Origin: a virus
Direction: 5' to 3' (one strand)
Virus record (IMG/VR): IMGVR_UViG_3300012954_000041
Span: 1-32,205 of that record
Length of the DNA: 32,205 bases
Positions 2-22,466 of this stretch are shown in pieces; within the stretch, counting starts at the first letter, position 1, and each line of letters starts with the position of its first letter. The translations under genes and the position numbers were made by a program. The notes under the pieces are model-generated. The model saw only the letters and a program-made list of their open reading frames with translations, had not been told where the DNA came from and ran no database searches.

Positions 2-343
2 CGCACAGATCCTGGCGGTGGATACCATGTATGGCATTGTGAGAATGGTAACTTCCTGTACCGTGACCGTGTGCTGACGTGGATGATCTATTTGAATGAC
101 ATCCCTGCTGAGAATGGTGGTGGCACTGACTTTTACCATCAGAAAAAGACTTTGCATCCCAAGAAAGGAACCATTGTTCTTTGGCCTGCTACGTACACCC
201 ACATGCACCGTGGTGCTTTCTTGACAGGTGATAAATCTAAGTACATTGCCACTGGATGGTTCCTGCGTGAACCTGGTAACGTCACCAACCGCACTGTCAG
301 TGAAGCAATGGGTAAGTCAACCCCTATTGATAAACTAAATTGA
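2..343 (+). CDS. 2OG-Fe(II) oxygenase, prolyl-4-hydroxylase-like (5' end outside window)
   Basis: The reading frame is open to the left edge, so this is the C-terminal 113 residues of a longer gene. Visible are a GGYHVWH segment near the edge (a likely first Fe ligand region), a GGGTDF strand, a KKGTIVLWPA strand and a THMHRG motif (likely distal His ligand) followed by KYIATGW. This order is typical of the double-stranded beta-helix of 2OG-Fe(II) oxygenases of the P4H type, which hydroxylate a protein or small-molecule substrate using 2-oxoglutarate and O2. The substrate cannot be inferred. Its TGA overlaps the TTG start of the next gene, so translation is probably coupled. The first in-frame Met in the window (position 71) is internal to the fold and is not the start. 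Confidence 0.8.
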   Translation, partial: RTDPGGGYHVWHCENGNFLYRDRVLTWMIYLNDIPAENGGGTDFYHQKKTLHPKKGTIVLWPATYTHMHRGAFLTGDKSKYIATGWFLREPGNVTNRTVSEAMGKSTPIDKLN

Positions 344-2817
344 TTTTTTATACGTGTATCACCAACGGATACGACTCAGTTCCTGACGCATATGTTGAGG
401 AGGGTTGTAGGTATGTTCTGTTTCATGATGGAAGCATTCCTACAACCAAAGGTCCTTGGGAGTACGTACATCTAGATCAACTAAACTGTAAACTTCCCGA
501 CTGCCCTGTCAGGAAGTCATATGTTATCAAGCATGAACCCCACGTTTACTTCAAAGATTCTGGGGTAAAGACTGTATGGGTAGACGCTGCATATAATATT
601 GACAAAAATCTTGTTGATTATAGCAAGAAAATCTTTCAACATCCACATAGTTATGTTGTACTGCAGGAGCATCCTGAACCGAGGACTCTGCTAGAAGAAT
701 TCAACAAACTATATTCCGATGGGTTCTCCAACAGCGTGGACATCACCAAGATGTCTGAGAAGATGCTTGCTGAGGAAAACCCATACCCCAAGAAGGACTA
801 CAAGCAGACCATCAACTGTGTTGTATGGAGACATAACTTTGAGGAGTGCAGGAGGTGGAACCGAACATGGGCAAGATGGTATAGGAGAGGTGTCAACCGA
901 GATCAGATTGCTAGTGCCATCGCTGAGCATGAAACAGGACTGACAGCACTGCGTGTACCCATGCAAGTCAGTCTTGACAACACCAATCGGGTCAAGAAGT
1001 ACGAGGATTCTTATAATATTGATCGACCAAACAACAAACAGATCACTGACTTCCAAAAGAAATTAGTAAAGATCTGGGATACTGATATTTCTGCTGCCAA
1101 AATGAAGGCAGCAGTGCCTACTCTACCCCATGAGTTTGGGGAACTGGTAGATCCAGAGCAGATGTATGTCTATACATGCATCACCAATGAGCATGACATT
1201 CCCCAGAATGCTTACTTCGATTCAAGAATAAACTACTGGATCTTTCATGATGGGATGAGTGTCCCCAAGCATCAGAGGAAAAGTGGTGTCTGGAAGTATG
1301 TTGATGTCTCGCACCTTGGGATTGATAACCCTAGAGAGTTGGCGTTCTATGTCAAGGCAAATCCACAAGAGTTTTTTCCGCCTAACTCATACACAGTATG
1401 GATTGATGGGTGCTTCGACCATACCTGTGACTTCATAGAGAGATCCCGTGGATGCTTCCCCTTCTCTGTCTTACGTCATGGAGGAGAGTTCTCTTACTAC
1501 GATGAGTTGCTGGAAGGATTTACCTGTGCCTTCTACAAGTACAGCACAGCAATCTGTTACACCCAGTCTCTAGCAGATAAGAACTACAGTTTCTTGAACT
1601 ACTCCAGTCCACAGTGCTCTGCTGTCTGGAGACAGTTGACACCTGAGGTGATCAAGTTCAATAAAGAATGGTATGAGCAGGGCAAGTACATCAACCGGGA
1701 CACGATTCCTTTTGATGCTGCTATGCAATTCACAGGTGTAACCCCACGGTTCTATGACAACCGGGATGATTGTGGCATCAAATTTGGATTCAAGAACAAG
1801 AAGGGCAGACTCAAGAAGCATGAGCAACTGGGTGACCTAGATCAATACAAGAAGGTAGACCAGTTCCTCAAAGACATTGATCGAGTCACTGGTCTTGAGG
1901 CAAAACTGCACTCCAAGTACAAACTCCATGAGTTTTACATGAGGTACTACGGTATCGGTGGCAAGTTAGGACTATCATTCACTACCTATCCGTACCACGA
2001 AGGTGTCCGTGTAAGGAAGGACCAGGTTGTTATCTACACGTGTATCACTAATGGGCACGACGTTATCCCTAGCGAGAACTATTACGACCCTGAGATCAGG
2101 TACGTGTGCTTTCATGACGGAACCATTGATACCACCGAGAGACCATGGGAGTACATCAAACTAGATTTGGACATCGAATGCCCTAGAGACCTGGCGTTCT
2201 ATCCGAAGTGCAACCCCCACGAGTTCTTTGACAAAGGAACCTACACAGTGTGGGTAGATGGATGCTTCGTACACACCAGAGAGTTTGTTGAGAAGAGTTT
2301 GTACTCCTTCCCCTTCACCACACTCAGGAACATCAGCAAGTTCTCCTACTACGACGAGTTGCTAGAAGGATTTACGTGTGCTTTCTTCCCCTACGAGGGA
2401 GGAGTGGAGATCACTGAGGAATTGAGCAACACAAACTATAAGTTCAACAAGTATTCCAGTCCCCAGTGCTCAATCGTGTGGAGGTATCTGTATGATGACA
2501 CAATCAGATTCAACAAAGAGTGGTATAATTGGAGTAAGAAAGGCATCAATAGGGACAGTATTCCTTTTGATGCTGCCGTTCAATTGACCAGTATCAAACC
2601 TCTGTACTATGAGAACAGGTCTGACTCTGGTATCAAGATGGGATTCCAGCACAAGGTTGGTAGAGTCAAGAAGCACCCTCAGTATGGAGACAAGACTCAG
2701 TACACCAAGGTCGATCAGTTTATAAAAGATCTAGAGAAGATCACCAAACTAAAAACACTCCTGTATATCAAATACAAGTTTCATGAGTTCTACATGAAAC
2801 ACTACGACATCATATGA
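340..2817 (+). CDS. Triple-domain glycosyltransferase-like protein (DUF616/TOD1-MUCI70-like)
   Basis: 825 residues made of three tandem copies of one unit, starting near residues 1, 275 and 563. Each copy opens with an (I/V/F)YTCITN strand, then an FHDG motif and a PWEY-like segment, then VWVDAAY or VW(I/V)DGCF (a putative metal/nucleotide-sugar site). Later come a conserved VWR segment and NRD(Q/T/S)I, which continues as PFDAA in the second and third copies. This order matches my recollection of the DUF616 (TOD1/MUCI70) glycosyltransferase-like family, so transfer of a sugar is plausible but unproven. The first copy is the most diverged and has AAY in place of GCF. The start is a TTG overlapping the upstream TGA, while the three following family genes use ATG in ATGA overlaps. 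Met275 marks the start of the second unit, as if an ancestral start codon was retained. Alternative: an array of glycan-binding or degenerate transferase domains. Confidence 0.8.
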   Translation: MIFYTCITNGYDSVPDAYVEEGCRYVLFHDGSIPTTKGPWEYVHLDQLNCKLPDCPVRKSYVIKHEPHVYFKDSGVKTVWVDAAYNIDKNLVDYSKKIFQHPHSYVVLQEHPEPRTLLEEFNKLYSDGFSNSVDITKMSEKMLAEENPYPKKDYKQTINCVVWRHNFEECRRWNRTWARWYRRGVNRDQIASAIAEHETGLTALRVPMQVSLDNTNRVKKYEDSYNIDRPNNKQITDFQKKLVKIWDTDISAAKMKAAVPTLPHEFGELVDPEQMYVYTCITNEHDIPQNAYFDSRINYWIFHDGMSVPKHQRKSGVWKYVDVSHLGIDNPRELAFYVKANPQEFFPPNSYTVWIDGCFDHTCDFIERSRGCFPFSVLRHGGEFSYYDELLEGFTCAFYKYSTAICYTQSLADKNYSFLNYSSPQCSAVWRQLTPEVIKFNKEWYEQGKYINRDTIPFDAAMQFTGVTPRFYDNRDDCGIKFGFKNKKGRLKKHEQLGDLDQYKKVDQFLKDIDRVTGLEAKLHSKYKLHEFYMRYYGIGGKLGLSFTTYPYHEGVRVRKDQVVIYTCITNGHDVIPSENYYDPEIRYVCFHDGTIDTTERPWEYIKLDLDIECPRDLAFYPKCNPHEFFDKGTYTVWVDGCFVHTREFVEKSLYSFPFTTLRNISKFSYYDELLEGFTCAFFPYEGGVEITEELSNTNYKFNKYSSPQCSIVWRYLYDDTIRFNKEWYNWSKKGINRDSIPFDAAVQLTSIKPLYYENRSDSGIKMGFQHKVGRVKKHPQYGDKTQYTKVDQFIKDLEKITKLKTLLYIKYKFHEFYMKHYDII

Positions 2818-3755
2818 TCCTTTACACATCCATTACTAACGGATACTTTCAGTTACCACAATTAGATCTCGATTGTAGGTGTGTTTGTTTCCATGATGGA
2901 AGTGTAAAAGAGCAGGAAGGATGGGAACTGGAGTACATCCCTGGGTTCTCGTCTGATCCTGTACGTATGTCACGTATAGTCAAGATGCTATGCCCATTCG
3001 ACGAACCGAATGTTTATATTGATGCGTCTAAACTTCACACACTAAACAATAAGTTTTGTGAAGTATCTGAATTCATACTTTCACAGGATACTTTTACTGT
3101 AATAGAACATCCACACTGCCATAGATACCTCGAAGAGTGTGCTGAATACATTTGTAGGGGACTGGTTCCCTTCGATGATGTGTATAAGTTCACGGTTGCT
3201 GCTGCTAAGGCAGGGTATAACTTCAAAGACTATCTGTCACCACTGTGTACGATCCTCTGGAGGAAGGGCAAGACTGACTTCGATCAACTCTGGTGGGACT
3301 GGTACCTCAAGGGAGGTAGGAGAGATCAACTGTCCTTTGCAGTGGCACTGCAGATGGGTGGGGTGAAGTACAACACTGTTCCTGCCAGAGATCTGATTGA
3401 TGTCTGGTCAGATGCCAGCGATGGTGGTCAGTGGTGGGCGAATAAGGGTGGTAGGTACGGCACTAAGTATCATGTCAACCCTGAGTGGGCAGTAGACATC
3501 CTGTGTAATGTGACTGGTCTTGAAAAGAACTCAAGGAACTATCGCTGTGCTGTCGTTACTGAGGGTGATGAACCTGTCTGGTTGTTCGGAGATATGTCAT
3601 CTCATTTCGATTATAAGTATAAAAAATTGAACGTTTTGAACCCACACCACAGTCTGCTGTGGTATACGAATAGAAAGACTGGTCTCATGCGAAGACCCAC
3701 TCGAACTATCAGGTCACACTTCACCGATCCTTTCTTCTTCCCACATCCAATATGA
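2814..3755 (+). CDS. Glycosyltransferase-like protein, DUF616-like, diverged copy
   Basis: Fourth unit of the tandem family, 313 residues. It keeps the opening LYTSITNGY strand, CFHDGS, a NVYIDASKLHT segment in the position of the family VWIDG motif, a LWR segment and RRDQLSFAVALQ. It is the most divergent complete unit and has an extra C-terminal stretch of roughly 60 residues rich in aromatic and basic residues that the other copies lack. It starts with ATG overlapping the previous TGA by four bases. Function is inferred only from the family; changes around the IDAS site could mean altered donor choice or loss of catalysis. Confidence 0.75.
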   Translation: MILYTSITNGYFQLPQLDLDCRCVCFHDGSVKEQEGWELEYIPGFSSDPVRMSRIVKMLCPFDEPNVYIDASKLHTLNNKFCEVSEFILSQDTFTVIEHPHCHRYLEECAEYICRGLVPFDDVYKFTVAAAKAGYNFKDYLSPLCTILWRKGKTDFDQLWWDWYLKGGRRDQLSFAVALQMGGVKYNTVPARDLIDVWSDASDGGQWWANKGGRYGTKYHVNPEWAVDILCNVTGLEKNSRNYRCAVVTEGDEPVWLFGDMSSHFDYKYKKLNVLNPHHSLLWYTNRKTGLMRRPTRTIRSHFTDPFFFPHPI

Positions 3756-4567
3756 TTATCTACACTTGCGTCACCAACGGATACGATAAGTTCTCTGACG
3801 AACATTATTACGATCCGGATGTCAGGTACGTTGCCTTTACTGATGGGACAGTAGAAGTTCCTGAGCAGTGGGAGTCCTACCCCATCAAGATAGAGCACGA
3901 GTGTCCTCGGAGACTGTCTGCTCACCCCAAGATCTGTCCTCACCATTACTTTGAGGTAGGACAAGCAACTGTATGGATTGATGGGTGCTACGTCATCACC
4001 AAAGAGTTTGTTGAGACCTCTAAGAAAATCCTGTCACAGTATAAGTTGACCCATATGATCCATCCCTGCCGCTTCAACTTTGTTGAGGAGGTGATGGAAG
4101 GTTACGTGTCTTCCTTCAACACCAAGGAGCAGATGGTGGAGATTATGGAGACGTTGAGGGAGTTGAAGTATGACTTTAGGGCATACTGTAGTCCTGTACT
4201 GGCATCAATCTGGAGGCAGATCATCCCTGAGATATATGAGTTCCACGATATCTGGTGGAAGTATTCTTTGATTGGTCCCAACCGCGACCAGATTTCCTTT
4301 GATACTGCACGGCAACTGACTGGAATCCCGTGGCAGACAATCAAAAACAAAAAACAGAACTACTGGCCTGAGGTTGGCATTGATTTTGATCACCGCACAG
4401 GTAAAAAGAACCGTCTGGGCAGGCACCCACAGGCAGGAGACCTGGAGCAGTACAAGCGTGAAGGTGAGATGCTCAAGGAGATCGGTAGGTGCACTCGTTT
4501 GATTCCCAAGTTGCATTACAAACACAACTTTCAGTCAATGATTGAGGCAAACGTATTGAACCGATGA
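3752..4567 (+). CDS. Glycosyltransferase-like protein, DUF616-like
   Basis: Fifth unit, 271 residues, a single canonical copy: YTCVTNGYD at residue 4, VRYVAFTDG, a CP.R.SA...ICPHHYF segment, VWIDGCYVIT, a WR segment and NRDQISFDTARQLTG. Its FTDG motif, rather than FHDG, brings it closest to the next gene. ATGA overlaps at both ends imply translation as part of one coupled transcript. Expected role is sugar transfer to an unknown acceptor, such as host surface glycan, phage structural protein or modified DNA. The neighbouring 2OG oxygenase could supply hydroxylated acceptors, but that is inference. Confidence 0.78.
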   Translation: MIIYTCVTNGYDKFSDEHYYDPDVRYVAFTDGTVEVPEQWESYPIKIEHECPRRLSAHPKICPHHYFEVGQATVWIDGCYVITKEFVETSKKILSQYKLTHMIHPCRFNFVEEVMEGYVSSFNTKEQMVEIMETLRELKYDFRAYCSPVLASIWRQIIPEIYEFHDIWWKYSLIGPNRDQISFDTARQLTGIPWQTIKNKKQNYWPEVGIDFDHRTGKKNRLGRHPQAGDLEQYKREGEMLKEIGRCTRLIPKLHYKHNFQSMIEANVLNR

Positions 4568-5424
4568 TTATCTACTCTTGTATCACTAATGGATATGATG
4601 AGATTCCTGATGAGAATTACTACGATCCGGATGTCAAGTATGTGATGTTCACGGACGATACTGTCAAGAGGAAAGGACCATGGGAGTTCCGACCCATCCC
4701 ATGTGTTCATGTCTGTCCTCGTATCCGTTCCTCCTACGTCAAGATCAATCCCCACAAAGTTTTTGATGAGGGTGAGGAGGTTGTTTGGATTGATGGTTGC
4801 TACATCATGACCAAAGAGTATGTGGAGAACAGTAAGAAATACTTTGAAGAGGATTCCTTTACGGTCATCCGTCATGTGAATCGCTACTCATACTATGACG
4901 AGATACTGGAGGGGTTTATGTCCTCCATGAACACCAAGGAGCAGCAACTACAGATCACTCGGGTCCTGAAGTGGATGGGGTATGACTTCAAGAAGTACAG
5001 CAGTCCTGTGCTGGGATCTATTTGGCGTCGTCTAGAAAACTATGAGGAGTTCGGTGATCTCTGGTGGAAGTATGCATTGATTGGTCCCAATCGTGACCAG
5101 ATCTCTTTCGATGCTGCCAAACAATTCACCAATAAGAAGATGACATTCATTGAAGATGGGTGGCATGAAGTGTGGAGAGATAAGAGAGGAAAGTATTTGC
5201 ACAGGGCAGGAAGTTGTGGTATATTGTTTGGACAGCAGGGTAAAAAGTATCGTCGCAAAAGACATCCACAAGCAGGACATCCTACTCAGTGGAAGGAGAG
5301 ACGAGAAATCCTTGCTGAACTTAGAGACATCACTGGACTACATCCATTTGTTTTTGCTAAACATGATCACTCTGAGTTCATAGAACGTAATGTGATTTCT
5401 CCTACTTTACCTTTACAAAAGTAG
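4564..5424 (+). CDS. Glycosyltransferase-like protein, DUF616-like, last unit of array
   Basis: Sixth unit, 286 residues: YSCITNGYD, VKYVMFTDD, VNRYSYYDEILEGF, VWIDGCYIMT, WRR, and NRDQISFDAAKQFTN. The SYYDE(L/I)LEGF block is shared with the second and third units of the fused gene, so copies from both ends of the array are close relatives. The ATG overlaps the preceding TGA. No terminator follows; the next 160 bases hold a late-promoter-like box and the structured psbA leader. Glycosyltransferase activity is a family-level inference. Confidence 0.78.
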   Translation: MIIYSCITNGYDEIPDENYYDPDVKYVMFTDDTVKRKGPWEFRPIPCVHVCPRIRSSYVKINPHKVFDEGEEVVWIDGCYIMTKEYVENSKKYFEEDSFTVIRHVNRYSYYDEILEGFMSSMNTKEQQLQITRVLKWMGYDFKKYSSPVLGSIWRRLENYEEFGDLWWKYALIGPNRDQISFDAAKQFTNKKMTFIEDGWHEVWRDKRGKYLHRAGSCGILFGQQGKKYRRKRHPQAGHPTQWKERREILAELRDITGLHPFVFAKHDHSEFIERNVISPTLPLQK

Positions 5425-5446: not shown

Positions 5447-5540
5447 ATTACGTTACAAAGCGTAATGAACACCCCGCAAACCGAGACCTCTAGGGTGTCT
5501 AAACCACGTCTCTCATACCTCACCTGGAGGGTAGGTGAGG
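5447..5540 (+). promoter_or_regulatory. Structured psbA leader with three successive hairpins
   Basis: Three inverted repeats follow one another: ATTACG (5447) with CGTAAT (5461), loop 8; ACACCC (5469) with GGGTGT (5493), loop 18; and CCTCACC (5518) with GGTGAGG (5534), loop 9. Together they fill most of the 160-base gap between the last glycosyltransferase-like gene and psbA. The third is not followed by a T-run, so it is not an intrinsic terminator. A role in mRNA stability or translational control of psbA is inference. Confidence 0.5.
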
Positions 5541-5585
5541 AATAATCTACCAGTGTTCCCCGCACTAATACATAACCCTTTTTCA

Positions 5586-6662
5586 ATGTCTGCTACTCTT
5601 TCACGCTCCCGGCAAACGTCCTGGGAGTCTTTTTGTGAGTGGACCACCAGCACTAACAACCGCCTCTATGTGGGTTGGTTCGGTGTCCTGATGATCCCCA
5701 CTCTTCTTGCTGCCACCACCTGTTTCATCATTGCTTTCGTCGCTGCTCCCCCCGTGGACATCGACGGTATCCGTGAACCAGTTGCTGGATCTCTCATCTA
5801 TGGCAACAACATCATCTCTGGTGCTGTTGTTCCTTCGTCAAACGCAATCGGTCTCCACTTCTATCCCATCTGGGAAGCTGCCTCTCTTGATGAGTGGTTG
5901 TACAACGGTGGTCCTTACCAGCTGGTTGTCTTCCACTTCCTGATCGGCATCTTCTGCTACATGGGACGTGAGTGGGAACTCTCTTATCGTCTGGGCATGC
6001 GCCCATGGATCTGTGTTGCTTACTCCGCTCCGGTCGCTGCTGCATCCGCAGTTTTCCTTGTCTACCCGTTTGGGCAGGGCAGTTTTTCAGACGGCATGCC
6101 TCTGGGCATTTCCGGTACGTTCAACTTCATGCTCGTCTTTCAGGCTGAACATAATATTCTTATGCATCCTTTCCATATGCTTGGTGTTGCCGGCGTATTT
6201 GGTGGGTCTTTGTTCAGTGCTATGCATGGCAGTCTGGTCACGTCGTCCCTTGTTCGTGAGACGACTGAGTCAGAGTCTCAAAACTATGGTTACAAGTTTG
6301 GTCAGGAGGAAGAGACTTATAACATCGTGGCGGCGCACGGTTATTTCGGACGGCTTATTTTCCAATATGCTTCGTTCAATAACAGTCGCTCTCTTCATTT
6401 CTTCCTTGCTGCTTGGCCCGTTGTGGGTATTTGGTTTACTGCCCTTGGAGTATCTACTATGGCGTTCAACTTGAACGGCTTCAACTTCAACCAGTCCATC
6501 CTCTCTAACGATGGTCGTGTCCTGAACACCTGGGCAGATGTCTTGAATCGCGCTAACCTTGGTATGGAAGTAATGCACGAGCGTAACGCTCACAACTTCC
6601 CTCTTGACCTTGCTGCTGCTGAGTCAACTCCTGTTGCACTCACCGCTCCCAGCATCGGTTGA
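5586..6662 (+). CDS. psbA: Photosystem II reaction-centre protein D1
   Basis: 358 residues, full length for D1 and uninterrupted by an intron. It binds the manganese cluster, P680 and QB in the thylakoid membrane and is the fast-turnover subunit damaged by light; phage copies replace host D1 during infection. Visible residues, one lower than plant numbering: Tyr160 (YZ, Tyr161), Asp169 (Asp170), Glu188-His189 (189/190), and the C-terminal [13 protein letters not shown], whose terminal Ala (Ala344) precedes the CtpA-processed tail [15 protein letters not shown]. Glu129 corresponds to Glu130 of the high-light D1 form. The ATG is chosen because the upstream in-frame GTG at 5535 would add 17 residues foreign to D1 and overlap a leader hairpin. 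A terminator follows. Confidence 0.98.
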
Positions 6663-9524: not shown

Positions 9525-10979
9525 ATGCCATCTGTTTACCAACCGTGGGACAAACTGAAGACGTGTCTTGTTGGCAAATCATATCCTCCTGAGTTTTATT
9601 CATACATCAAAGATCCCAAAGCACGTGCTGGGATGGAAAGAATTGCTCAGGAAACTGAGGAAGACTACCAAAAACTCTGCGATAAATTGACGGAGTTAGG
9701 TGTCAATGTTATTAGAACTAATATTTCTGATGACTGGGAGAAGGATCATAACTGGGGATATCAATGTAAGTATCCTTCGGCAATGATTCCACGGGATCAC
9801 CTTGCAGTGATCGGTGACAAACTGTACATGCCGAACAGTGATTACCTAAAGAACATAGATCTTCGAGAGATGATCTACAGCATCCACAATCAGGACTGTA
9901 AGCGTGAGTGGATGCAACCTGGTGCTGACTTGGTTGCAGAGTTCATCCTTGACATGATGAAACCTGCTAGGGGTGTTCAGAATATGGATCCCATTGAGGA
10001 ACTCCGTGACTTCTACCATAACTATGGGTCCAAGCGTCGTGATGGTCACGCCTACAGTCTGGGTGGACTACTGGTAGGACTAGATCTAGAGGACATGGAG
10101 AGACTGTGTCTGAGTGCTGCTACTAATACCATTGGTGATCCTTACAGGGTCAATAGAGATTACAATGAGTTCCAAGATGCAGAGAAGTGGTTCAAAGACC
10201 AGGGTGGTGAAGTTGTATACAATCAGTACGTCAACAGTGCTGCCGTCATCAGTTGTGGTAGGGATCTATATTTCTCCCTGAACAACATCATAAACCTGGC
10301 AAACCAGGATACATTCATGGCGAAGTGGGAGCGTTTGTTCCCTGAGTTTAGAAATCATCCTCTGTATGTTCCTGGACATGGTGATGGTGCTTTGACTCCA
10401 GTCAAACCAGGATTGTTAGTTACTATTTCTAGAGAAGAATTCTTCGCAGAAACATTCCCTGGATGGGAGGTCTGTCGTATTCCTGGCAGTGGATGGAAGC
10501 AGATGGATGGTTTCTTGAAGATCAAGAAGAAAAACAAAGGACGTTGGTGGGTTCCTGGAGAGGAAGACAACGATGCGTTGACTGAGTTTGTGGAGACTTG
10601 GTTGAATGACTGGGTGATCTATGTTGAGGAGACGGTCTTTGATGTCAATATGCTGGTGGTGGATGAGAAGAATGTCATCTGTAACAACTACAATAAGAAA
10701 GTGTTTGATGCCTTTGAAAAGCATGGCATCACAGGTCACATCGTGAACTTCAGGCACCGTTACTTCTGGGATGGTGGACTGCACTGCATCACTCTCGACC
10801 TTGATCGTGAGGGAGAGATGCAAGACTTTTGGCCTGAGCGTGGTAATAAAAGTTATATCATTCAAGACCCCCGGTCACATAAAAAGTCAGAGATGTATAG
10901 TAAGTGGAGCAAGTATGACATGGAACGTCCTAGTTACAGGAAGGACCAAGAGATCTTGGCAGAGCGAAATAAGGATTGA
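9525..10979 (+). CDS. Glycine amidinotransferase-like enzyme (GATM superfamily)
   Basis: 484 residues. The family moves an amidino group from arginine to an amine acceptor through a covalent Cys intermediate, or hydrolyses it (arginine deiminase relatives). Visible landmarks are a PRD motif near residue 88, GLLVGLD, a CGRDLYFS strand, GHGDGALTPVKPGLLV and, near the C-terminus, FRHRYFWDGGLHCITLDL, where His420-Cys421 sit where the catalytic Cys is expected. It resembles the arginine:glycine amidinotransferase class more than deiminases by length and the GLHC context. Products such as guanidinoacetate or a guanidinylated metabolite or base are possible. The gene has its own late-promoter box upstream and is followed by a terminator-like hairpin. 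Confidence 0.8.
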   Translation: MPSVYQPWDKLKTCLVGKSYPPEFYSYIKDPKARAGMERIAQETEEDYQKLCDKLTELGVNVIRTNISDDWEKDHNWGYQCKYPSAMIPRDHLAVIGDKLYMPNSDYLKNIDLREMIYSIHNQDCKREWMQPGADLVAEFILDMMKPARGVQNMDPIEELRDFYHNYGSKRRDGHAYSLGGLLVGLDLEDMERLCLSAATNTIGDPYRVNRDYNEFQDAEKWFKDQGGEVVYNQYVNSAAVISCGRDLYFSLNNIINLANQDTFMAKWERLFPEFRNHPLYVPGHGDGALTPVKPGLLVTISREEFFAETFPGWEVCRIPGSGWKQMDGFLKIKKKNKGRWWVPGEEDNDALTEFVETWLNDWVIYVEETVFDVNMLVVDEKNVICNNYNKKVFDAFEKHGITGHIVNFRHRYFWDGGLHCITLDLDREGEMQDFWPERGNKSYIIQDPRSHKKSEMYSKWSKYDMERPSYRKDQEILAERNKD

Positions 10980-13432: not shown

Positions 13433-13882
13433 ATGGCAAAACTTCCTAACAATCCACTGGTCTCCGAACTGTTCAAAGCAGTACACGGTGCTAAGACTGT
13501 GGATAAGAAGGTTGAACTACTGGAATCCCACAAACGGGATGACGTAAAGGCAATCCTTATCTGGAACTTCGATAAGGGTATCAAGTCTGCCATCCCTGAG
13601 GGTGACGTTCCTTACAAGAAGAACGAATCACCTGCTGGCACTGATGGGCACACCCGTCTGGCACATGAGTGGCGGTCACTGTATAACTTTATCCGTGGCG
13701 GCAACGACAAGATTTCTCAGATGCGTCGGGAGACCCTGCTGATTCAACTGTTGGAGTCACTCCATGCTGATGAGGCAGAGATCGTTACCCTGGTCAAGGA
13801 TGGTGAACTGCAAAGCAAGTATCGCATCACTCGTAGTGTTGTAGAGAAAGCGTACCCTGAGATCCACTGGCGTGATAAGTGA
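13433..13882 (+). CDS. Conserved T4-like phage protein (DUF6433-like)
   Basis: 149 residues, soluble. The pattern K..KVELLE.H..DDVKAIL-W-FD..IKSAIPEGDVPYKKNE followed by RLAHEWRSLYNFIRGG and a helical C-terminal half matches the DUF6433 family of T4-like phages as I recall it. Function is unknown. Its TGA overlaps the GTG start of the radical SAM gene. Confidence 0.75.
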   Translation: MAKLPNNPLVSELFKAVHGAKTVDKKVELLESHKRDDVKAILIWNFDKGIKSAIPEGDVPYKKNESPAGTDGHTRLAHEWRSLYNFIRGGNDKISQMRRETLLIQLLESLHADEAEIVTLVKDGELQSKYRITRSVVEKAYPEIHWRDK

Positions 13883-14991
13883 AGTTTCTCATTGATCTAA
13901 CAGATCATTGCAACTCCAAGTGTCCTCTGTGTGCCAGACATAAGACATCATATAACGATGAGGTTGCGGTGCTCGCACCCGATCCATCAATGAACCTGTC
14001 AAAGATTTCACTTCAACAGTGGAAGACATGGTTCCCACAAAAGACCCTTGAGAAGACAGAGTTGATCTACTTCCAAGGGTCTTTTGGTGAACCAACATTA
14101 TGTGATGATTTGCTTGAGATATATGCCTACACCCTGAAGTCCAACCCCAACATCGTTTTCCAGATGAGTACCAACGGTGGTACCCGTGACGATGAATTTT
14201 GGGGCAGACTTGGTGCTCTCATGGGAGCATCACACAAAGATAGTTTCCTCATCTTTTCTATTGATGGTCTAGAAGATACCCTGCAGCAATACCGTGTGGG
14301 TGTGGACTACAAGAAGGTGATGCAGAGTGCTAAAGCATTCATCAAGTCAGGTGGTCCTGCTGTGTGGAGGATGCTGGTGTTCAAGCACAACCAACACCAG
14401 ATAAAAAGATGTAAGACACTGAGCAAACTGTGGAAGTTCAAAGACTTCCAACACACTCGTGTCAATGATATGTATGACGCCAGTGGACGTGGAAATGGTA
14501 AGTTTACTTATTCCTACAGGAATAAGGTGCACACCCTGCAGGTAGCAGATGATCCAGACCAAACGTACCGCCCAGACCCTGTAGCAGAGGACTCAGAGGT
14601 CGTGTGTCGCTATGGTCATATCAAAGGCAGTCCTGGGCAACTGAGGATTGATAGTAGGGGTGTGGTGCATGCCTGTTGCTTCCACCAGTCACGTCTCAGG
14701 TTCTTCTACCCTGGATATTATATTGACAATGATATTGATGCACCTGCGGTCTTCCGTGACATCAACAACCCAAACAAGGGAGTGGGTGCAGAGTATATTC
14801 AGAAGGTCTTCTGGGACAACGTGATCCCTTTGATTGAGGAGCAGGGCGGTATCAAAACCATTTCTTTAGAGCACCACTCGTTACATGATGTATTGCAAAC
14901 TCCCTTTTTCCAACATACTCTGGTAGAATCTTGGAGTAATAGACCGCACATCTGTGCAGACTATTGCGGTAAGAAAAGGTGTATCCGTTGA
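13879..14991 (+). CDS. Radical SAM protein with C-terminal Cys-rich region
   Basis: 370 residues. Cys11-x3-Cys15-x2-Cys18 in DHCNSKCPLC binds the 4Fe-4S cluster that cleaves S-adenosylmethionine to a 5'-deoxyadenosyl radical. Later segments fit the TIM-barrel (YFQGSFGEPTL, FQMSTNGGT, LIFSIDGLEDTL). The C-terminal part has VVCRYGH, HACCFHQ and ICADYCGKKRC, a possible SPASM/Twitch-like auxiliary cluster, as in peptide-modifying and small-molecule-modifying members. Starts with GTG overlapping the previous TGA. It is a different subtype from the radical SAM proteins at 18659 and 21390. Substrate unknown. Confidence 0.85.
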   Translation: MKFLIDLTDHCNSKCPLCARHKTSYNDEVAVLAPDPSMNLSKISLQQWKTWFPQKTLEKTELIYFQGSFGEPTLCDDLLEIYAYTLKSNPNIVFQMSTNGGTRDDEFWGRLGALMGASHKDSFLIFSIDGLEDTLQQYRVGVDYKKVMQSAKAFIKSGGPAVWRMLVFKHNQHQIKRCKTLSKLWKFKDFQHTRVNDMYDASGRGNGKFTYSYRNKVHTLQVADDPDQTYRPDPVAEDSEVVCRYGHIKGSPGQLRIDSRGVVHACCFHQSRLRFFYPGYYIDNDIDAPAVFRDINNPNKGVGAEYIQKVFWDNVIPLIEEQGGIKTISLEHHSLHDVLQTPFFQHTLVESWSNRPHICADYCGKKRCIR

Positions 14992-15674: not shown

Positions 15675-16318
15675 GCGTCAAACTAATTAGCGTCACTCCC
15701 GATGCGGAGCAGACGATGGCATACATCGCCCGCGTAAGCAACCCTGCAAACCAAGAGAACGAAAAATATGCAGGACTTCTGAAGTATTGCATCAAACACA
15801 ATCATTGGAGTGTATTTGAACAGTCTTCAATGACACTGGAGATATCAACTACACGTGCAATTTCAGCTCAAATTTTGAGACATAGGAGCTTTACATTTCA
15901 AGAATTTTCACAACGCTACGCTGATACTCAACTCCTAAAGGACAACATTCCCCTGCCAAAGATGCGTCGGCAGGATACAAAGAACAGACAGAACTCCATC
16001 GATGACCTGGATGATTTCATTGTCCAGAGACTAGAGTTGCAGATGCAAACTCTGTTCTCCTCTGCTCAGGCATTGTACAACCAGATGCTGGATGCAGGTG
16101 TGGCAAAGGAGTGTGCAAGAAATGTGCTTCCGTTATGCTCGCCCACCAAAATGTACATGACCGGTTCATGCAGATCATGGGCACATTACATCTCCCTCCG
16201 TACTGCTAACGGTACACAGCAGGAGCACATGGACATCGCTAAGGAGTGTAAAAAGATCTTCATTGAACAATTCCCTGCTGTTAGTGAGGCACTGGAATGG
16301 GTCGAATCTGCGGAATAA
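15671..16318 (+). CDS. thyX: Flavin-dependent thymidylate synthase
   Basis: 215 residues, usual ThyX length. The ThyX motif RHR-x7-S is at Arg70-His71-Arg72...Ser80, followed by QRY. It makes dTMP from dUMP using FAD, NADPH and methylene-tetrahydrofolate, supplying thymidine for phage DNA. The C-terminal RSWAHYISLRT carries the conserved Arg region. Transcribed from the perfect promoter at 15487, so probably early. The last 22 bases overlap the carbamoyltransferase gene. Confidence 0.95.
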   Translation: MSVKLISVTPDAEQTMAYIARVSNPANQENEKYAGLLKYCIKHNHWSVFEQSSMTLEISTTRAISAQILRHRSFTFQEFSQRYADTQLLKDNIPLPKMRRQDTKNRQNSIDDLDDFIVQRLELQMQTLFSSAQALYNQMLDAGVAKECARNVLPLCSPTKMYMTGSCRSWAHYISLRTANGTQQEHMDIAKECKKIFIEQFPAVSEALEWVESAE

Positions 16319-17289
16319 ATTTGTCGCACAATGGATCTCTTGCCATTCTTGAGGATGGGGAGGTCCAATTTTATGTGGAAGAGGAGAGATTGAGTCGTGT
16401 CAAGCGGGACAGGTCTGCCTACACTGCTGCGACTCAATTTTTAGATGATTTTATCGATGTGGTCACCATCAGTGACTGCTTCACCAAATATAACTTGGAA
16501 AAATACCTGCTTAGAACCAAGCAGGCAAACAAAATCATTGATCTAGTCAAGGAAAGGGGACTTCCTCTCAAGGATTATCGTGACAGACATCATGAATGTC
16601 ATGCAGCAAATGCCTACTACAACTCTGGGTTCGATAATGCTGCTGTCATTGTCATGGATGGCAAAGGTTCCCTCCATCCCCACAAAGACTGGAAGTTTTG
16701 TGAGACTGAAAGTATCTACGATGTGAGCGGCGGCAAGTTTGAGTCAGTCTTCAAACACTACTCAACATTCTGGAGTGAAGAGGAGTCTAAGAAGTTAGGT
16801 GCTTCCTTCTGGGATGGTGGAAACTTTTACAGCACCAGGACCAGCGTCGGTCAGGCATACCGCAGGGTGTCACGATACTGTGGGTTTGATGAGACACATG
16901 CTGGTAAAACCATGGGTCTATCAACATACGGTGCAGCACCTGAGGACCTGTTCGAGATTCACAATGGACACAGCGTGTGCTCCACTGAACTTAGTGCAGA
17001 AGGTAACACTACTAGTTACACAGGAATTGAATACCATCCTGAAGACTTAGCGTACCGACTCCAGAAGTCTGCCGAGAAGCATGCCTTATTCATGTTAGAG
17101 AAAGCGTATGAGTTGACCGGCAGGGAGAATGTGGTAGTGACAGGAGGATTCTTCCTCAACTGCATTGCCAACTATCAACTCCTGAAGACTGGCATAAATC
17201 TCTATGTAGATCCACTTGCATATGACGGCGGAATCGCCATTGGTTCTGCCCTTTTAGAACATTATGAGAACACTGTACCTCGGTCCTGA
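16297..17289 (+). CDS. Carbamoyltransferase N-domain subunit (NodU/CmcH/TobZ type)
   Basis: 330 residues. ICGINLSHNGSLAILEDG and VEEERLSRVKRD are the canonical N-terminal strands; H98-H99-E-C-H102 and YDGG near the end are the Fe-binding His/His/Asp of the Kae1-like fold; AGKTMGLSTYG and VVTGGFFLNCIANY are further family blocks. In TobZ-type enzymes this domain transfers carbamoyl from carbamoyl-adenylate to a hydroxyl. Usual family proteins are single chains of ~550 residues; here the C-domain is a separate gene in the +1 frame overlapping by 26 bases. The protein ends right at the normal domain boundary. Confidence 0.9.
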   Translation: MGRICGINLSHNGSLAILEDGEVQFYVEEERLSRVKRDRSAYTAATQFLDDFIDVVTISDCFTKYNLEKYLLRTKQANKIIDLVKERGLPLKDYRDRHHECHAANAYYNSGFDNAAVIVMDGKGSLHPHKDWKFCETESIYDVSGGKFESVFKHYSTFWSEEESKKLGASFWDGGNFYSTRTSVGQAYRRVSRYCGFDETHAGKTMGLSTYGAAPEDLFEIHNGHSVCSTELSAEGNTTSYTGIEYHPEDLAYRLQKSAEKHALFMLEKAYELTGRENVVVTGGFFLNCIANYQLLKTGINLYVDPLAYDGGIAIGSALLEHYENTVPRS

Positions 17290-17860
17290 ATACGATCTGT
17301 CTTCAATCAAAGGTGAGGATGTAACTTACGATGATGTAGCAGAGATCATTGCAGGTAGAGAACTAGTTGCTCTGTTCCAAGGCAGGTCAGAGGCAGGTCC
17401 TCGTGCTCTTGGCAATCGCTCTTTGCTTTATGACCCCCGTGATAATGAAGCACAGAAGGTAGTAAACAAAATAAAAAAGCGTGAGGAGTGGAGACCATTT
17501 GCTGCCAGCGTCATGCTTGAGTATGCAAATGATTGGTTTGATATGCAGGGACTTGATGAGTCACCCTTCATGATGTATGCCATGGATGCACGTCCAACTG
17601 GTTGGCATCTGATCCCAGGTGTCCTGCACATCGACAAAACTTGTCGCATCCAAACTGTTACTGAGAAACAGAACGAGCACTACTACAAACTGATCCGTGC
17701 ATTCTGGGACAGGACAAGCATCCCAATGCTATTCAACACCTCGTTCAACCTGGCAGGTCAACCCCTGGTAGAGACACCGCAAGATGCATTCGCTACCTTC
17801 AACATGTCAGACATACCTTACCTTTACTTTCCAGAGATCGGAAAGCTGGTACGAAAATGA
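17264..17860 (+). CDS. Carbamoyltransferase C-domain subunit (YrdC-like)
   Basis: 198 residues with GRSEAGPRALGNRSLLYDPR, REEWRPFAASV and FNTSFNLAGQPLVETPQDAF, the hallmark blocks of the carbamoyltransferase C-terminal (Carbam_trans_C) domain, which in TobZ makes carbamoyl-AMP from carbamoyl phosphate and ATP. It starts at an ATG inside the end of the N-domain gene without a clear Shine-Dalgarno, so coupled re-initiation is likely. It begins LYLGPEYD, the natural continuation of a single-chain enzyme. It may serve both N-domain proteins flanking it. Confidence 0.9.
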   Translation: MRTLYLGPEYDLSSIKGEDVTYDDVAEIIAGRELVALFQGRSEAGPRALGNRSLLYDPRDNEAQKVVNKIKKREEWRPFAASVMLEYANDWFDMQGLDESPFMMYAMDARPTGWHLIPGVLHIDKTCRIQTVTEKQNEHYYKLIRAFWDRTSIPMLFNTSFNLAGQPLVETPQDAFATFNMSDIPYLYFPEIGKLVRK

Positions 17861-17925
17861 CTTTTGAGTTACCAGAAACTGGAAAAAAAACTCGGGCAAA
17901 AAATTTGCTCCTAGGGTTGAACATG
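17852..17925 (+). repeat. Dispersed ~70-nt hairpin element, copy 1
   Basis: Matches 26814-26885. The core TACCAGAAACTGG, A8 and CTCGGG is identical in both. Contains hairpin CCAG-AAA-CTGG and hairpin GGGCAAA-AAA-TTTGCTC (17894-17910). Here it overlaps the first 22 codons of the second N-domain gene. Paired changes in the second stem between copies are described in the findings. Confidence 0.8.
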
Positions 17926-18672
17926 TCCAACAACGGTTCGGCATGTGTTTTAGAGGATGGTAAACCCGTTTGGTACCTGGAGGCAGAGCGTGCTTCTTAT
18001 GTAAAGTATGACTATGACATCAGGATTCTCCTTGACAGGTTGCCCAATGATATAGAGCACATTGCTCTGGCAGATTCTTTTTGGAAGCGAGGTAACAAGC
18101 AGGTCGATAACGTCAAGATTTTGTCTGCTGTCAAGAAAAAGTTCCCCGGTGCCACACTGTATGACTACAGGAAGAAGCACCACATGACACATGCAGCGTG
18201 TGGTTTCTACAACTCTGGGTTCACCAGTGCTACCTGCATTGTGGTTGATTCCAACGGATCAAAGACACCAGATGGACTAGAGATTGAGTCTGTCTTCTTT
18301 GCACCCACCTGGGACACCATTCACAAAACGATGTTCTCTCCTGACAGCATAGGTTTTGGTAGGAGATTTGAAGAGGCATGTGTTCACTATGGGTGGCACC
18401 ACATGGATGCAGGTAAGGTCATGGGCAAGAGTGCATATGATTCTGAACCTGCCAAGTCTCTACAGGCAGAGTGGGAGGAGAGGGTGCTCGACCTGATCTG
18501 TATGGCACCTACAAAGGATATTGTTCTGGCAGGTGGATGTTTCTTGAACTGTGTAGCAAACTATAAAGCACTCAAAAGATTCCCTGACTACAGGTTCTAT
18601 GCAGAACCACTAGCGAATGATGGAGGCACTGCTATGGGTGCTGCTTACCTGGCATACCATGGCATTGATTGA
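17857..18672 (+). CDS. Second carbamoyltransferase N-domain protein without C-domain
   Basis: 271 residues. LLLGLNMSNNGSACVLEDG aligns with the opening strand of the gene at 16297, so translation must begin before Met23 (17923), and the ATG at 17857, overlapping the preceding TGA, is preferred. Metal and nucleotide blocks remain: KKHHMTHAACGFYNSGF, DAGKVMG, VLAGGCFLNCVANY and PLANDGGTAMGAAY. It is about 60 residues shorter than its paralogue in the middle and has no adjoining C-domain of its own. It could use the C subunit encoded just upstream, giving two acceptor specificities from one carbamoyl-AMP source. The first 22 codons contain the dispersed hairpin element. Confidence 0.85.
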   Translation: MTFELPETGKKTRAKNLLLGLNMSNNGSACVLEDGKPVWYLEAERASYVKYDYDIRILLDRLPNDIEHIALADSFWKRGNKQVDNVKILSAVKKKFPGATLYDYRKKHHMTHAACGFYNSGFTSATCIVVDSNGSKTPDGLEIESVFFAPTWDTIHKTMFSPDSIGFGRRFEEACVHYGWHHMDAGKVMGKSAYDSEPAKSLQAEWEERVLDLICMAPTKDIVLAGGCFLNCVANYKALKRFPDYRFYAEPLANDGGTAMGAAYLAYHGID

Positions 18673-19450
18673 CATCCTAGACATCAGTGCATCGATTGGA
18701 TGTAACCTTCAGTGCAAGGGTTGCAACCATTTCAGTAACTATTTTGCTCCTGGTAGCAAGATTGATACGGATAGTTTACTCAAAGATATTGAAACGCTAC
18801 TACCCAGGGTAAATATTGGTAGGGTATCTGTTATTGGCGGTGAACCCCTACTGAATCCACGTTGCAGAGAGATTCTCGATGCATGTACAGCACACACTGA
18901 CGCTCCTGTTTATCTATACAGTAATGGTCTATTGCTCCTGGAGAATGAAACGTGGATCAAGGAAATCTTAGAGAATCCTCAGGTGTTTCTTAGGATCAGC
19001 ATTCATTTAGAAAGAGTAGAAGATATCATCAAAGAGTTCAACCACCCCAAGGTTCTCGTCACTGAGCACCATACAGGCAAGGACAGGTGGTTCAACTCAA
19101 TCAAGAAAAGGGATGGCAAGGTCCATCCCTACACCCACAACAATCCGGCAAAGAGTTTCAAGGTATGTTCCTGTCCTAATGCACAGTTGTATGGAGGGAA
19201 ACTATGGAAGTGTCCTAACACAGCATTCCTGAGGGAATTGTTGTATGTAACAGAACAGCAGGATGATCCTGAGTGGCAGGAGTATCTTGTCGATGGTCTT
19301 CCTGTCACTTGTAGTGATAATGAGTTGACAAAATTCTGTAGTAATAGTAAACTGCCTGAAAGCGTTTGTAACATGTGTACCGCCAAACCAATAAAGTTCA
19401 GTGCTGCACTGCAAGAACGCAGTAAACGAAAGGTTATTTCCCCAAAATAA
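18659..19450 (+). CDS. Radical SAM protein, paralogue of the gene at 21390
   Basis: 263 residues. Cys15-x3-Cys19-x2-Cys22 in GCNLQCKGCNHFSNYFAP binds 4Fe-4S; VSVIGGEPLLNPR is the SAM-binding GGE block. The C-terminal region, SCPNAQLYGGKLWKCPN...DDPEWQEYL and SVCNMC, is nearly the same as in 21390-22466 and probably binds an auxiliary cluster. The ATG at 18659 overlaps the previous gene by 14 bases; the upstream in-frame ATG at 18617 would extend deep into it. Placement behind carbamoyltransferase genes suggests a shared pathway. Substrate unknown. Confidence 0.85.
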   Translation: MALIDILDISASIGCNLQCKGCNHFSNYFAPGSKIDTDSLLKDIETLLPRVNIGRVSVIGGEPLLNPRCREILDACTAHTDAPVYLYSNGLLLLENETWIKEILENPQVFLRISIHLERVEDIIKEFNHPKVLVTEHHTGKDRWFNSIKKRDGKVHPYTHNNPAKSFKVCSCPNAQLYGGKLWKCPNTAFLRELLYVTEQQDDPEWQEYLVDGLPVTCSDNELTKFCSNSKLPESVCNMCTAKPIKFSAALQERSKRKVISPK

Positions 19451-21164: not shown

Positions 21165-21390
21165 GTTCTTGTGTCAAGACAAGTTCACGAATGACATTGA
21201 GAACTTAGTCAAAGACAATGCTGACATGAACTACATCGAGGCGATTTGTTTCTATTGTGAGACAAACAACATCGAGATCGAGTCAGTTTCTAATCTCATC
21301 ACCAAACCTTTGAAAGAAAAACTCAAAGGCAATGCGATGAACCTAAATTATTTGAAGAGGACATCTAGAGCAAAGTTCTTTAGTATCTAA
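21142..21390 (+). CDS. 33: gp33-like late transcription co-activator
   Basis: 82 residues: KFTNDIENLVKDN-DMNYIEAICFYCETNNIEIESVSNLI..PLKEKLKGNAMNLNYLKR. The order (an acidic N-terminus, DMNYIEAI..YCE...IE.E.V..L, then KEKLK..A..LNYLK) matches cyanophage gp33 as I know it. In T4, gp33 bridges RNA polymerase and the gp45 clamp for late promoters. The ATG at 21142 lies 22 bases inside the nuclease gene; an upstream in-frame ATG at 21085 would add 19 residues from that frame. It is located near gp59 and gp32 as in T4. Confidence 0.75.
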   Translation: MKSILKSKFLCQDKFTNDIENLVKDNADMNYIEAICFYCETNNIEIESVSNLITKPLKEKLKGNAMNLNYLKRTSRAKFFSI

Positions 21391-22466
21391 TGGACAAACG
21401 AGAGTTCAAACTATCTCAGATCAAGAGTCACCTATCACTAGAAAGACTTCGAGAAGTATCTGAGAGTGTGGACTTCGTTCGACAACAGAAAGGATTCTGG
21501 ATAACAAACTTCAAACAGGTTACTCCTGAAGAGATTGCATCTCTTGAGGCGGAGCGACCTACCACAAGACTGTTGAGCATACATGTCATCAACGGATGCA
21601 ACCTGGCATGCCGTGCATGTAACCATAACAGTAGTCTTCTTGGTGTCAAGAGTGGGGTAGACATCGATGCTTTGATGGAAGACATCAAAGAATTCTTGCC
21701 CAAAGTATATGTGTGGAGTCATATCAGTATCATTGGTGGTGAACCTTTACTAGAACCACGCACCAGAGAGGTCGTGAAGGTTACCAGAGAGGTCGCAGAG
21801 GCAACGGGGCAGACCTGTAACATAAAACTGTTTAGCAACGGTTCACGCCTCTTACAGGAGCAGGAGTGGATCGCTGATGAAATGTTGAAAGGTGTCAACT
21901 TCAGACTCACCTTTCATAAACCCTGGTTTACTGAGCAAGGATCAGTGAACTGGTGTAATACTGCAAAGTTCATCAGGTATCTTCAGTCCAGAGACGTGGA
22001 CATCGATAACCTGTTGGAGTTTAGTGAAGCATTCCGTTTACTGGATGGCAAACCCAGGCAGTGGTTTGACCTTGTGCGGTATGAGATCACAGAAGATCAA
22101 ATCAAATACTACCCATTCGAGGAAGGGAATCCTGAAGAAAGTTTTCAGCACTGCACCTGTCCCAATAGTCAGTTGTATAATGGACACCTGTGGAAGTGTC
22201 CCATGATCTCTTACCTTAGAGAATCATTGGATGCCACAGATCAACTCAATGATCCTGAATGGCAGAAGTATCTGGCGTACAAACCCACCAGCATCTCTGC
22301 TTCTACAGATGACATCCAAGCATCGTTTGATGAGGTAAAAAAACCTCATGAGATCTGCTCCATGTGTCCTCGCAACCCTGTGTGGTTCACAGCAACCAAA
22401 CAGTTGGATGCGAAATTGAAAAAGAACGTCGCAATGCACGATGAAGCAACCTATGACACCGTTTGA
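21390..22466 (+). CDS. Radical SAM protein inserted in the gp33-gp59 interval
   Basis: 358 residues. An N-terminal extension (~60 residues) precedes NGCNLACRACNHNSS, with Cys70-x3-Cys74-x2-Cys77, then ISIIGGEPLLEPR. The C-terminal block HCTCPNSQLYNGHLWKCP...NDPEWQKYL and ICSMCPRNP matches the gene at 18659 closely. TAATG coupling to gp33 and a 26-base overlap with gp59 show it is embedded in the replication/late-transcription operon. Co-expression with replication genes would fit a modification of DNA, nucleotide or protein, but this is inference. Confidence 0.87.
   Translation: MDKREFKLSQIKSHLSLERLREVSESVDFVRQQKGFWITNFKQVTPEEIASLEAERPTTRLLSIHVINGCNLACRACNHNSSLLGVKSGVDIDALMEDIKEFLPKVYVWSHISIIGGEPLLEPRTREVVKVTREVAEATGQTCNIKLFSNGSRLLQEQEWIADEMLKGVNFRLTFHKPWFTEQGSVNWCNTAKFIRYLQSRDVDIDNLLEFSEAFRLLDGKPRQWFDLVRYEITEDQIKYYPFEEGNPEESFQHCTCPNSQLYNGHLWKCPMISYLRESLDATDQLNDPEWQKYLAYKPTSISASTDDIQASFDEVKKPHEICSMCPRNPVWFTATKQLDAKLKKNVAMHDEATYDTV

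Follow-up and report, generated by a model that had tools for sequence, protein, structure and literature searches.

A conserved, partly fused array of putative TOD1/MUCI70-type glycosyltransferases directly upstream of psbA in T4-like cyanophages

What would a cyanophage use six related, glycosyltransferase-like units for, placed in a row ahead of a photosynthesis gene? The question is raised by positions 340-5424 (+ strand) of a 32.2-kb virus record (IMG/VR IMGVR_UViG_3300012954_000041, the whole of which is called the window here), where four overlapping open reading frames (ORFs) encode six homologous units of about 270 residues each in a 3+1+1+1 layout. Judging from its genes, the window is from a T4-like cyanophage (cyanomyovirus): its psbA and psbD match those of hundreds of Synechococcus phages, and PhoH, single-stranded DNA-binding and baseplate genes are located downstream. 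We read the units as six glycosyltransferase (GT) domains of the TOD1/MUCI70 clan, which, as soluble enzymes of a larger cassette, would extend one glycan sugar by sugar; we hold this reading with somewhat better than even confidence. The enzyme family and the sugar-gene clusters of cyanophages were known already. The new element is a conserved, partly fused array of four classes at the psbA end of the cassette, which was not found in the cultured phages and the literature searched.

Layout of the array

The genes and units (U1 to U6) are listed below, with the position class of each unit, its score against the unit profile and its ratio of non-synonymous to synonymous substitution (dN/dS).

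340-2817, + strand: ORF of 825 amino acids (aa), fusion of U1, U2 and U3; TTG start overlaps the preceding stop as TTGA
2814-3755, + strand: ORF of 313 aa, U4; ATGA overlap, separate gene
3752-4567, + strand: ORF of 271 aa, U5; ATGA overlap, separate gene
4564-5424, + strand: ORF of 286 aa, U6; ATGA overlap, separate gene
340-1161, + strand: unit U1, class A; 337.7 bits; dN/dS 0.13-0.21
1162-2016, + strand: unit U2, class B (extra B copy); 389.0 bits; dN/dS 0.09-0.21
2017-2814, + strand: unit U3, class B; 407.6 bits; dN/dS 0.02-0.08
2814-3755, + strand: unit U4, class C; 311.1 bits; dN/dS 0.09-0.19
3752-4567, + strand: unit U5, class D; 408.7 bits; dN/dS 0.08-0.34
4564-5424, + strand: unit U6, class D; 418.9 bits; dN/dS 0.05-0.08

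The first-pass annotation had described six units in four genes with a three-unit fusion at the front, and the ORFs are present as it placed them. It had joined all of the genes by ATGA overlaps, which is correct for the three later junctions but not for the first, where the upstream oxygenase gene runs into the three-unit ORF through TTGA. This TTG start is kept in 12 of 12 copies, with just two open codons upstream of it. The internal methionine pointed out at a unit boundary is present in the window, but at this U1/U2 boundary methionine occurs in only 3 of the 12 copies and leucine in the other nine. Because of this, and because U3 begins with valine, the boundary methionine is no evidence for an internal start, and such a start was rejected. 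The landmarks YT(C/S)ITN, DG, VWIDG and RD-x-(I/L) are likewise present, although looser than had been claimed (YTCVTN in U5, YSCITN and TDD in U6, VWVDA in U1 and VYIDA in U4). Since the window begins partway through the gene that precedes the array in this cassette, the system extends past 340-5424.

Family membership and predicted fold

All 15 unit pairs are significantly similar (blastp, E 3e-11 to 3e-103), with 56% identity between U2 and U3, 49% between U5 and U6 and 25-41% in the remaining pairs. Searched unit by unit, as had been proposed, the Pfam family PF04765 (TOD1_MUCI70) is matched above its cut-off by U2 alone in the window (22.4 vs 21.4 bits) while the other five units stay below it, and at E ≤ 0.01 it matches 7 of 40 diverse phage units. 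The glycosyltransferase family phrog_26101 of PHROGs matches U5 (E 9e-6) and U6 (E 7e-8); Pfam, PHROGs and NCBIfam together give this one borderline and these two PHROG matches for the array. A profile of the 40 diverse phage units aligns with bacterial relatives from GTDB over 199 columns (hhalign probability 99.9%, E 2e-32), and 10 of 10 of those bacterial proteins match PF04765 (best E 6.7e-23). The units are tied to the family because these PF04765-positive relatives bridge them. Membership in the TOD1/MUCI70 (DUF616) clan appears well supported by this bridge, the direct Pfam test being borderline.

As a PDB sequence search with the unit profile yielded nothing beyond epsin matches at chance level (E 0.07-0.12), folds were compared instead. 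The AlphaFold2 model of U6 (pLDDT 94.1, pTM 0.91) has its best solved matches in LARGE1 (Z 11.9), UGGT (11.5) and alpha-1,3-galactosyltransferase (10.9), with ABO and LgtC also found; all of these are nucleotide-sugar GT-A enzymes, and the modest Foldseek E-values (1e-4 to 1e-3) are as expected because the families are distant. The model of the 825-aa fusion (pLDDT 82.3, pTM 0.57) shows the same secondary-structure pattern three times with weak linkers, and each of its units singly matches GT-A structures (Z 10.7-11.7). The units are thus predicted to have a GT-A glycosyltransferase fold, in which D77, part of a D-x-(C/S/A) motif, is the sole invariant acid where a DXD would usually stand. The reading of the units as DUF616/TOD1-MUCI70-like glycosyltransferases, put forward from the letters of the DNA, holds up on both counts, through the predicted fold of U6 and of each fusion unit and through the bacterial link to PF04765.

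LARGE1 is a bifunctional GT8-GT49 enzyme with two fused GT domains. It is the best structural match of U6, and the fusion model matches it with Z 12.6 and a root-mean-square deviation of 22 Å, which is meaningful per domain only; at about 9% identity and in different families, the resemblance is at the level of the fold only. Among viral models, U6 is matched best by a GT of a Cellulophaga phage and by DUF616/TOD1 proteins from algal and giant viruses, the closest predicted folds being the GT of Cellulophaga phage phi18:2 (phrog_26101, Foldseek E 2e-12) and a DUF616 protein of Tetraselmis virus 1 (5e-12). Unlike the present units, the Cellulophaga protein is not arrayed: its 24% identity covers part of the domain, and each record has one match place.

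Position classes and selection

A tree of 61 sequences was made by a quick search with SH-aLRT support alone, and some of its deep forks are open. All phage units fall together in one clade that excludes the bacterial ones (support 100). Within it are four classes, namely A (U1, support 99), B (U2 and U3, 98), C (U4, 91) and D (U5 and U6, 95); a set of 220 units gives the same four-class picture. Since divergent contigs have the same classes in the same A-B-C-D order, the duplication that formed the classes predates these phages. U5 and U6 each group with units of different phages, U2 and U3 are unpaired in the tree, and synonymous sites between the paralogues are saturated. Recent tandem duplication of U2/U3 and U5/U6 was rejected as a simple story, there being no such pairing in the tree. 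The duplication and later specialisation suggested at first sight survives in a deeper form, with four classes older than the divergence of the phages, and U1 and U4 are indeed the most divergent units.

In comparison with TOD1/MUCI70 proteins, the phage units share the motif set, a homology traced through bacterial proteins and the (predicted) GT-A fold, whereas their Pfam scores lie at the cut-off or under it, they make up a separate clade and they stand in tandem rows of 3-6, some of them fused; the aligned bacterial PF04765 members contain a single such domain each. MUCI70 itself is RGGAT1, a rhamnogalacturonan-I galacturonosyltransferase (PMC10576798).

The IMG/VR contigs were chosen by similarity, and the fractions of loci given here and below describe this sampled set rather than all cyanophages. 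Among 19 arrays flanked on both sides, the layouts are 3+1+1+1 (7), 2+1+1 (5), 1+1+1+1 (3), 2+2 (2), 3+2 (1) and 1+1+1 (1). A shorter version of the system is seen in L046, L047, L055 and similar loci, where only C- and D-like units lie directly before psbA, without an adjacent oxygenase or GT25.

All six units are under purifying selection, with dN/dS of 0.02-0.34 (against four relatives of 71-98% identity, some dS values being near saturation). Their frames are intact throughout. D77 is present in 220 and E113 in 219 of the 220 non-redundant units, and every window unit keeps the invariant set. From the invariant residues and the low dN/dS, we predict that the activity of the units is kept. 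In other phages, GC replaces the conserved RD motif in 18 of 46 class A units (e.g. L036:1160-1873 and L080:2779-3501), a hint that the activity of this position has changed or been lost there.

The surrounding glycan cassette

The array is bordered in the window by the following features.

2-343, + strand: C-terminal 113 residues of a 2-oxoglutarate (2OG)-Fe(II) oxygenase ('2OGb'), prolyl-4-hydroxylase-like; gene cut by the window edge
5457-5553, + strand: PhotoRC-II RNA in the psbA leader (Rfam RF01717, 73.9 bits); 3' boundary of the cassette
5586-6662, + strand: psbA (photosystem II D1), the conserved downstream neighbour of the array

The start of psbA is likely ATG 5586 rather than GTG 5535 of the mechanical ORF. 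No wcaG-type RNA reaches its gathering score near the cassette, the only RNA found being the PhotoRC-II RNA ahead of psbA. In 29 of the 31 loci with enough sequence, psbA follows the array within 2.5 kb; on the upstream side the oxygenase is the immediate neighbour in 61 of the 76 loci whose sequence reaches that far. The window copy of 2OGb matches PF13640 (E 2.3e-12) and phrog_61 (E 3.2e-28); for a full-length relative of 248 aa (in L014), the nearest solved structures are prolyl 4-hydroxylases (E about 0.002).

In a 192-kb relative (locus L014, genome G001) the array is the 3' end, just upstream of psbA, of a same-strand block of about 18.7 kb (109486-128153) whose genes overlap. The block starts with a mannose-6-phosphate-isomerase cupin, an RmlB-type dTDP-glucose 4,6-dehydratase (above its NCBIfam cut-off, 376 vs 365 bits), epimerases and a DegT aminotransferase. 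These are followed by an FkbM-like protein (sub-threshold), a 257-aa protein without a Pfam match, an oxygenase and GT17, then by an RXYLT1-like protein (weak), DUF5672, GT10, GT2 and GT11, and finally by a GT7C-like protein (weak), GT25, the second oxygenase and the six units. The nearest solved relatives of the GT25 are mimivirus R655 (E 2.6e-4) and, weakly, procollagen galactosyltransferase (E 0.08). Nucleotide-sugar biosynthesis and several GTs are thus clustered in a T4-like cyanophage genome in G001, while the window holds the 3' end alone; parts of this gene order recur in dozens of IMG/VR contigs.

No membrane segments are predicted in any cassette protein of G001, where psbA and psbD score clearly in the same test. 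Neither a flippase (PF01943) nor an initiating transferase (PF02397) was found in four relatives, whose records may be incomplete, with positive controls, and PF04932 (Wzy_C) has a sub-threshold match in one of the four. The sequences thus speak against the phage encoding a full Wzx/Wzy pathway by itself, though host machinery could still serve.

Distribution

A broader scan gave 246 viral contigs that encode a relative. Among 50,697 phage records searched by tblastn at E ≤ 1e-5, units were found in one alone, Marine virus AG-345-D19, and in none of the cultured phages searched. The plate that yielded AG-345-D19 had been sorted to hold extracellular particles (PMC6122165), and this speaks for packaging of the array in virions.

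We consider the lipopolysaccharide (LPS)/cell-wall clusters of large cyanomyoviruses (P-SSM2, S-SSM7, S-SM2, S-SCSM1; RN05-S, S-B05, S-H68) as the closest cluster type. They likewise combine nucleotide-sugar enzymes, GT11, GT17, GT25, FkbM, DegT and 2OG oxygenases in one block (PMC3037559, PMC9602691), but have no DUF616-type array at E ≤ 1e-5, whereas the present cassette is directly upstream of psbA. The isolates RN05-S, S-B05 and S-H68 carry a similar block, matching its nucleotide-sugar/GT17 part, without the array; the cassette GT25 has relatives in P-SSM2 and S-SM2, and S-SCSM1 has a very weak array match (E 0.03).

Proposed function and acceptor

From the gene content, an overlapping block of nucleotide-sugar enzymes and many GTs, we infer that one glycan is built stepwise. 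The cassette would make its own nucleotide sugars during infection, at least by the dTDP-6-deoxyhexose route, and its soluble enzymes would add them successively to a branched, partly fucosylated oligosaccharide. Each of the position classes A, B, C and D most likely does its own transfer step, and the A-B(-B) fusion would keep successive steps on one polypeptide. The acceptor may be a phage protein that receives its sugars in the cytoplasm, perhaps at a residue which the neighbouring oxygenase has hydroxylated: the nearest structures of the oxygenase and of the GT25 suggest, without proving, a hydroxylated protein acceptor. We put this choice of acceptor at odds similar to those of the host envelope, with a slight preference for the phage protein.

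A parallel is provided by the chlorovirus PBCV-1, whose A064R and A111/114R are soluble proteins of three successive domains of about 200-300 residues, with one glycan step each (PMC9614988). According to a published proposal, A111/114R attaches three of the sugars in the virion glycan core; for A064R, the domains have been assayed (PMC9614988). The layout of A111/114R (860 aa; 1-260, 261-559, 560-860) is nearly that of the phage fusion (825 aa; 1-274, 275-559, 560-825). In contrast to the phage fusion, which is one family three times, the PBCV-1 domains do not share a family, a methyltransferase being the last domain of A064R, and the likeness is best seen as an analogy of working rather than as membership. 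More tentative, and in our estimate rather improbable as a whole, is a cytoplasmic, hydroxylase-primed pathway in which the GT array would build a complex glycan on phage structural proteins, as a counterpart, in uncultured cyanophages, of the autonomous virion glycosylation of the chlorovirus type. A literature search on phage capsid glycosylation by phage-encoded GTs gave nothing useful.

Several points weigh against a stepwise assembly on a phage protein. A collagen-like acceptor was sought in G001, and no run of ≥7 GXY triplets was found in ORFs of ≥100 aa over the 192 kb, though the acceptor could be a non-collagen protein. The weak matches of the GT25 and the hydroxylase to collagen enzymes are no proof of a protein acceptor. 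The 18 of 46 class A units mentioned above lack the RD motif, and some units may thus be inactive. Upstream of the oxygenase, the cassette is known from relatives and not from the window itself. Comparable cyanophage clusters have been published as host-surface modification (PMC2984593, PMC9602691), and soluble GTs could use lipid-linked precursors of the host together with its flippase and ligase.

The last two points lead to the strongest alternative, to which we give a little less than an even chance, namely that the cassette remodels the LPS or another surface polysaccharide of the cyanobacterial host, which would block superinfection or alter recognition by grazers, with the array adding the distal sugars. 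P-SSM2, S-SSM7 and S-SM2 carry LPS-type clusters for which such a role has been proposed in print (PMC2984593, PMC3037559, PMC9602691), and the relatives of the cassette's GT25 and nucleotide-sugar/GT17 part in cyanophage isolates fit it. The missing flippase, initiating transferase and membrane segments, with Wzy_C below threshold, speak against it, as does the prolyl-4-hydroxylase-type oxygenase beside most arrays, for which LPS assembly offers no evident use.

Far less probable is a hypermodification of phage DNA, in which the oxygenase would supply a hydroxyl group and the transferases would glycosylate the hydroxylated base. The pairing of an oxygenase with GTs resembles phage DNA-glycosylation pathways in outline, and the nearest named phage relatives, those of Cellulophaga phages, are annotated beside a DNA methylase. 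Yet PF00303 (thymidylate synthase/dCMP hydroxymethylase) is absent from four relatives with positive controls, Tet_JBP has no match (its control also being silent), the oxygenase resembles prolyl 4-hydroxylases, the number of GTs is unusually high for a base, and evidence for DNA glycosylation by cyanomyoviruses is stated in print to be lacking (PMC2984593). The first-pass annotation had left host, virion and modified DNA side by side as places for an oligosaccharide; assembly of an oligosaccharide is well supported by the cassette, while DNA is without supporting genes. That the genes are decaying or functionless stuffer filling the head of a large-genome phage, a choice left open in print for cyanophage LPS genes (PMC3037559), is hardly credible given the low dN/dS of every unit, the retention of D77 and E113, the intact frames and the class and gene order fixed across divergent contigs.

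Other genes of the window

A 484-aa protein at 9525-10979 has no Pfam or NCBIfam match, and its C-terminal part is amidinotransferase-like (inosamine-phosphate, arginine:glycine; E 3e-8); G001 contains two tandem copies of it (132563-133888 and 133907-135370). The region 16297-18672 holds a split carbamoyltransferase, with an N-terminal part at 16297-17289, a C-terminal part at 17264-17860 and a second N-terminal-like ORF at 17857-18672. Enzymes of this kind can modify sugars, so this one might be connected with the glycan cassette. Three radical-SAM proteins are encoded at 13879-14991, 18617-19450 and 21390-22466.

Significance

Sugar-gene clusters have been known in cyanophages since the first large cyanophage genomes, and whether they are functional or filler was left open (PMC3037559). 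For one such cassette the array offers a sequence-based answer, in the form of purifying selection, a fixed order and four classes kept across divergent phages. The cassette named here was not found in the cultured phages searched, and its enzyme set is small enough to express and assay, which makes the question of a virion or a host-surface glycan directly testable.

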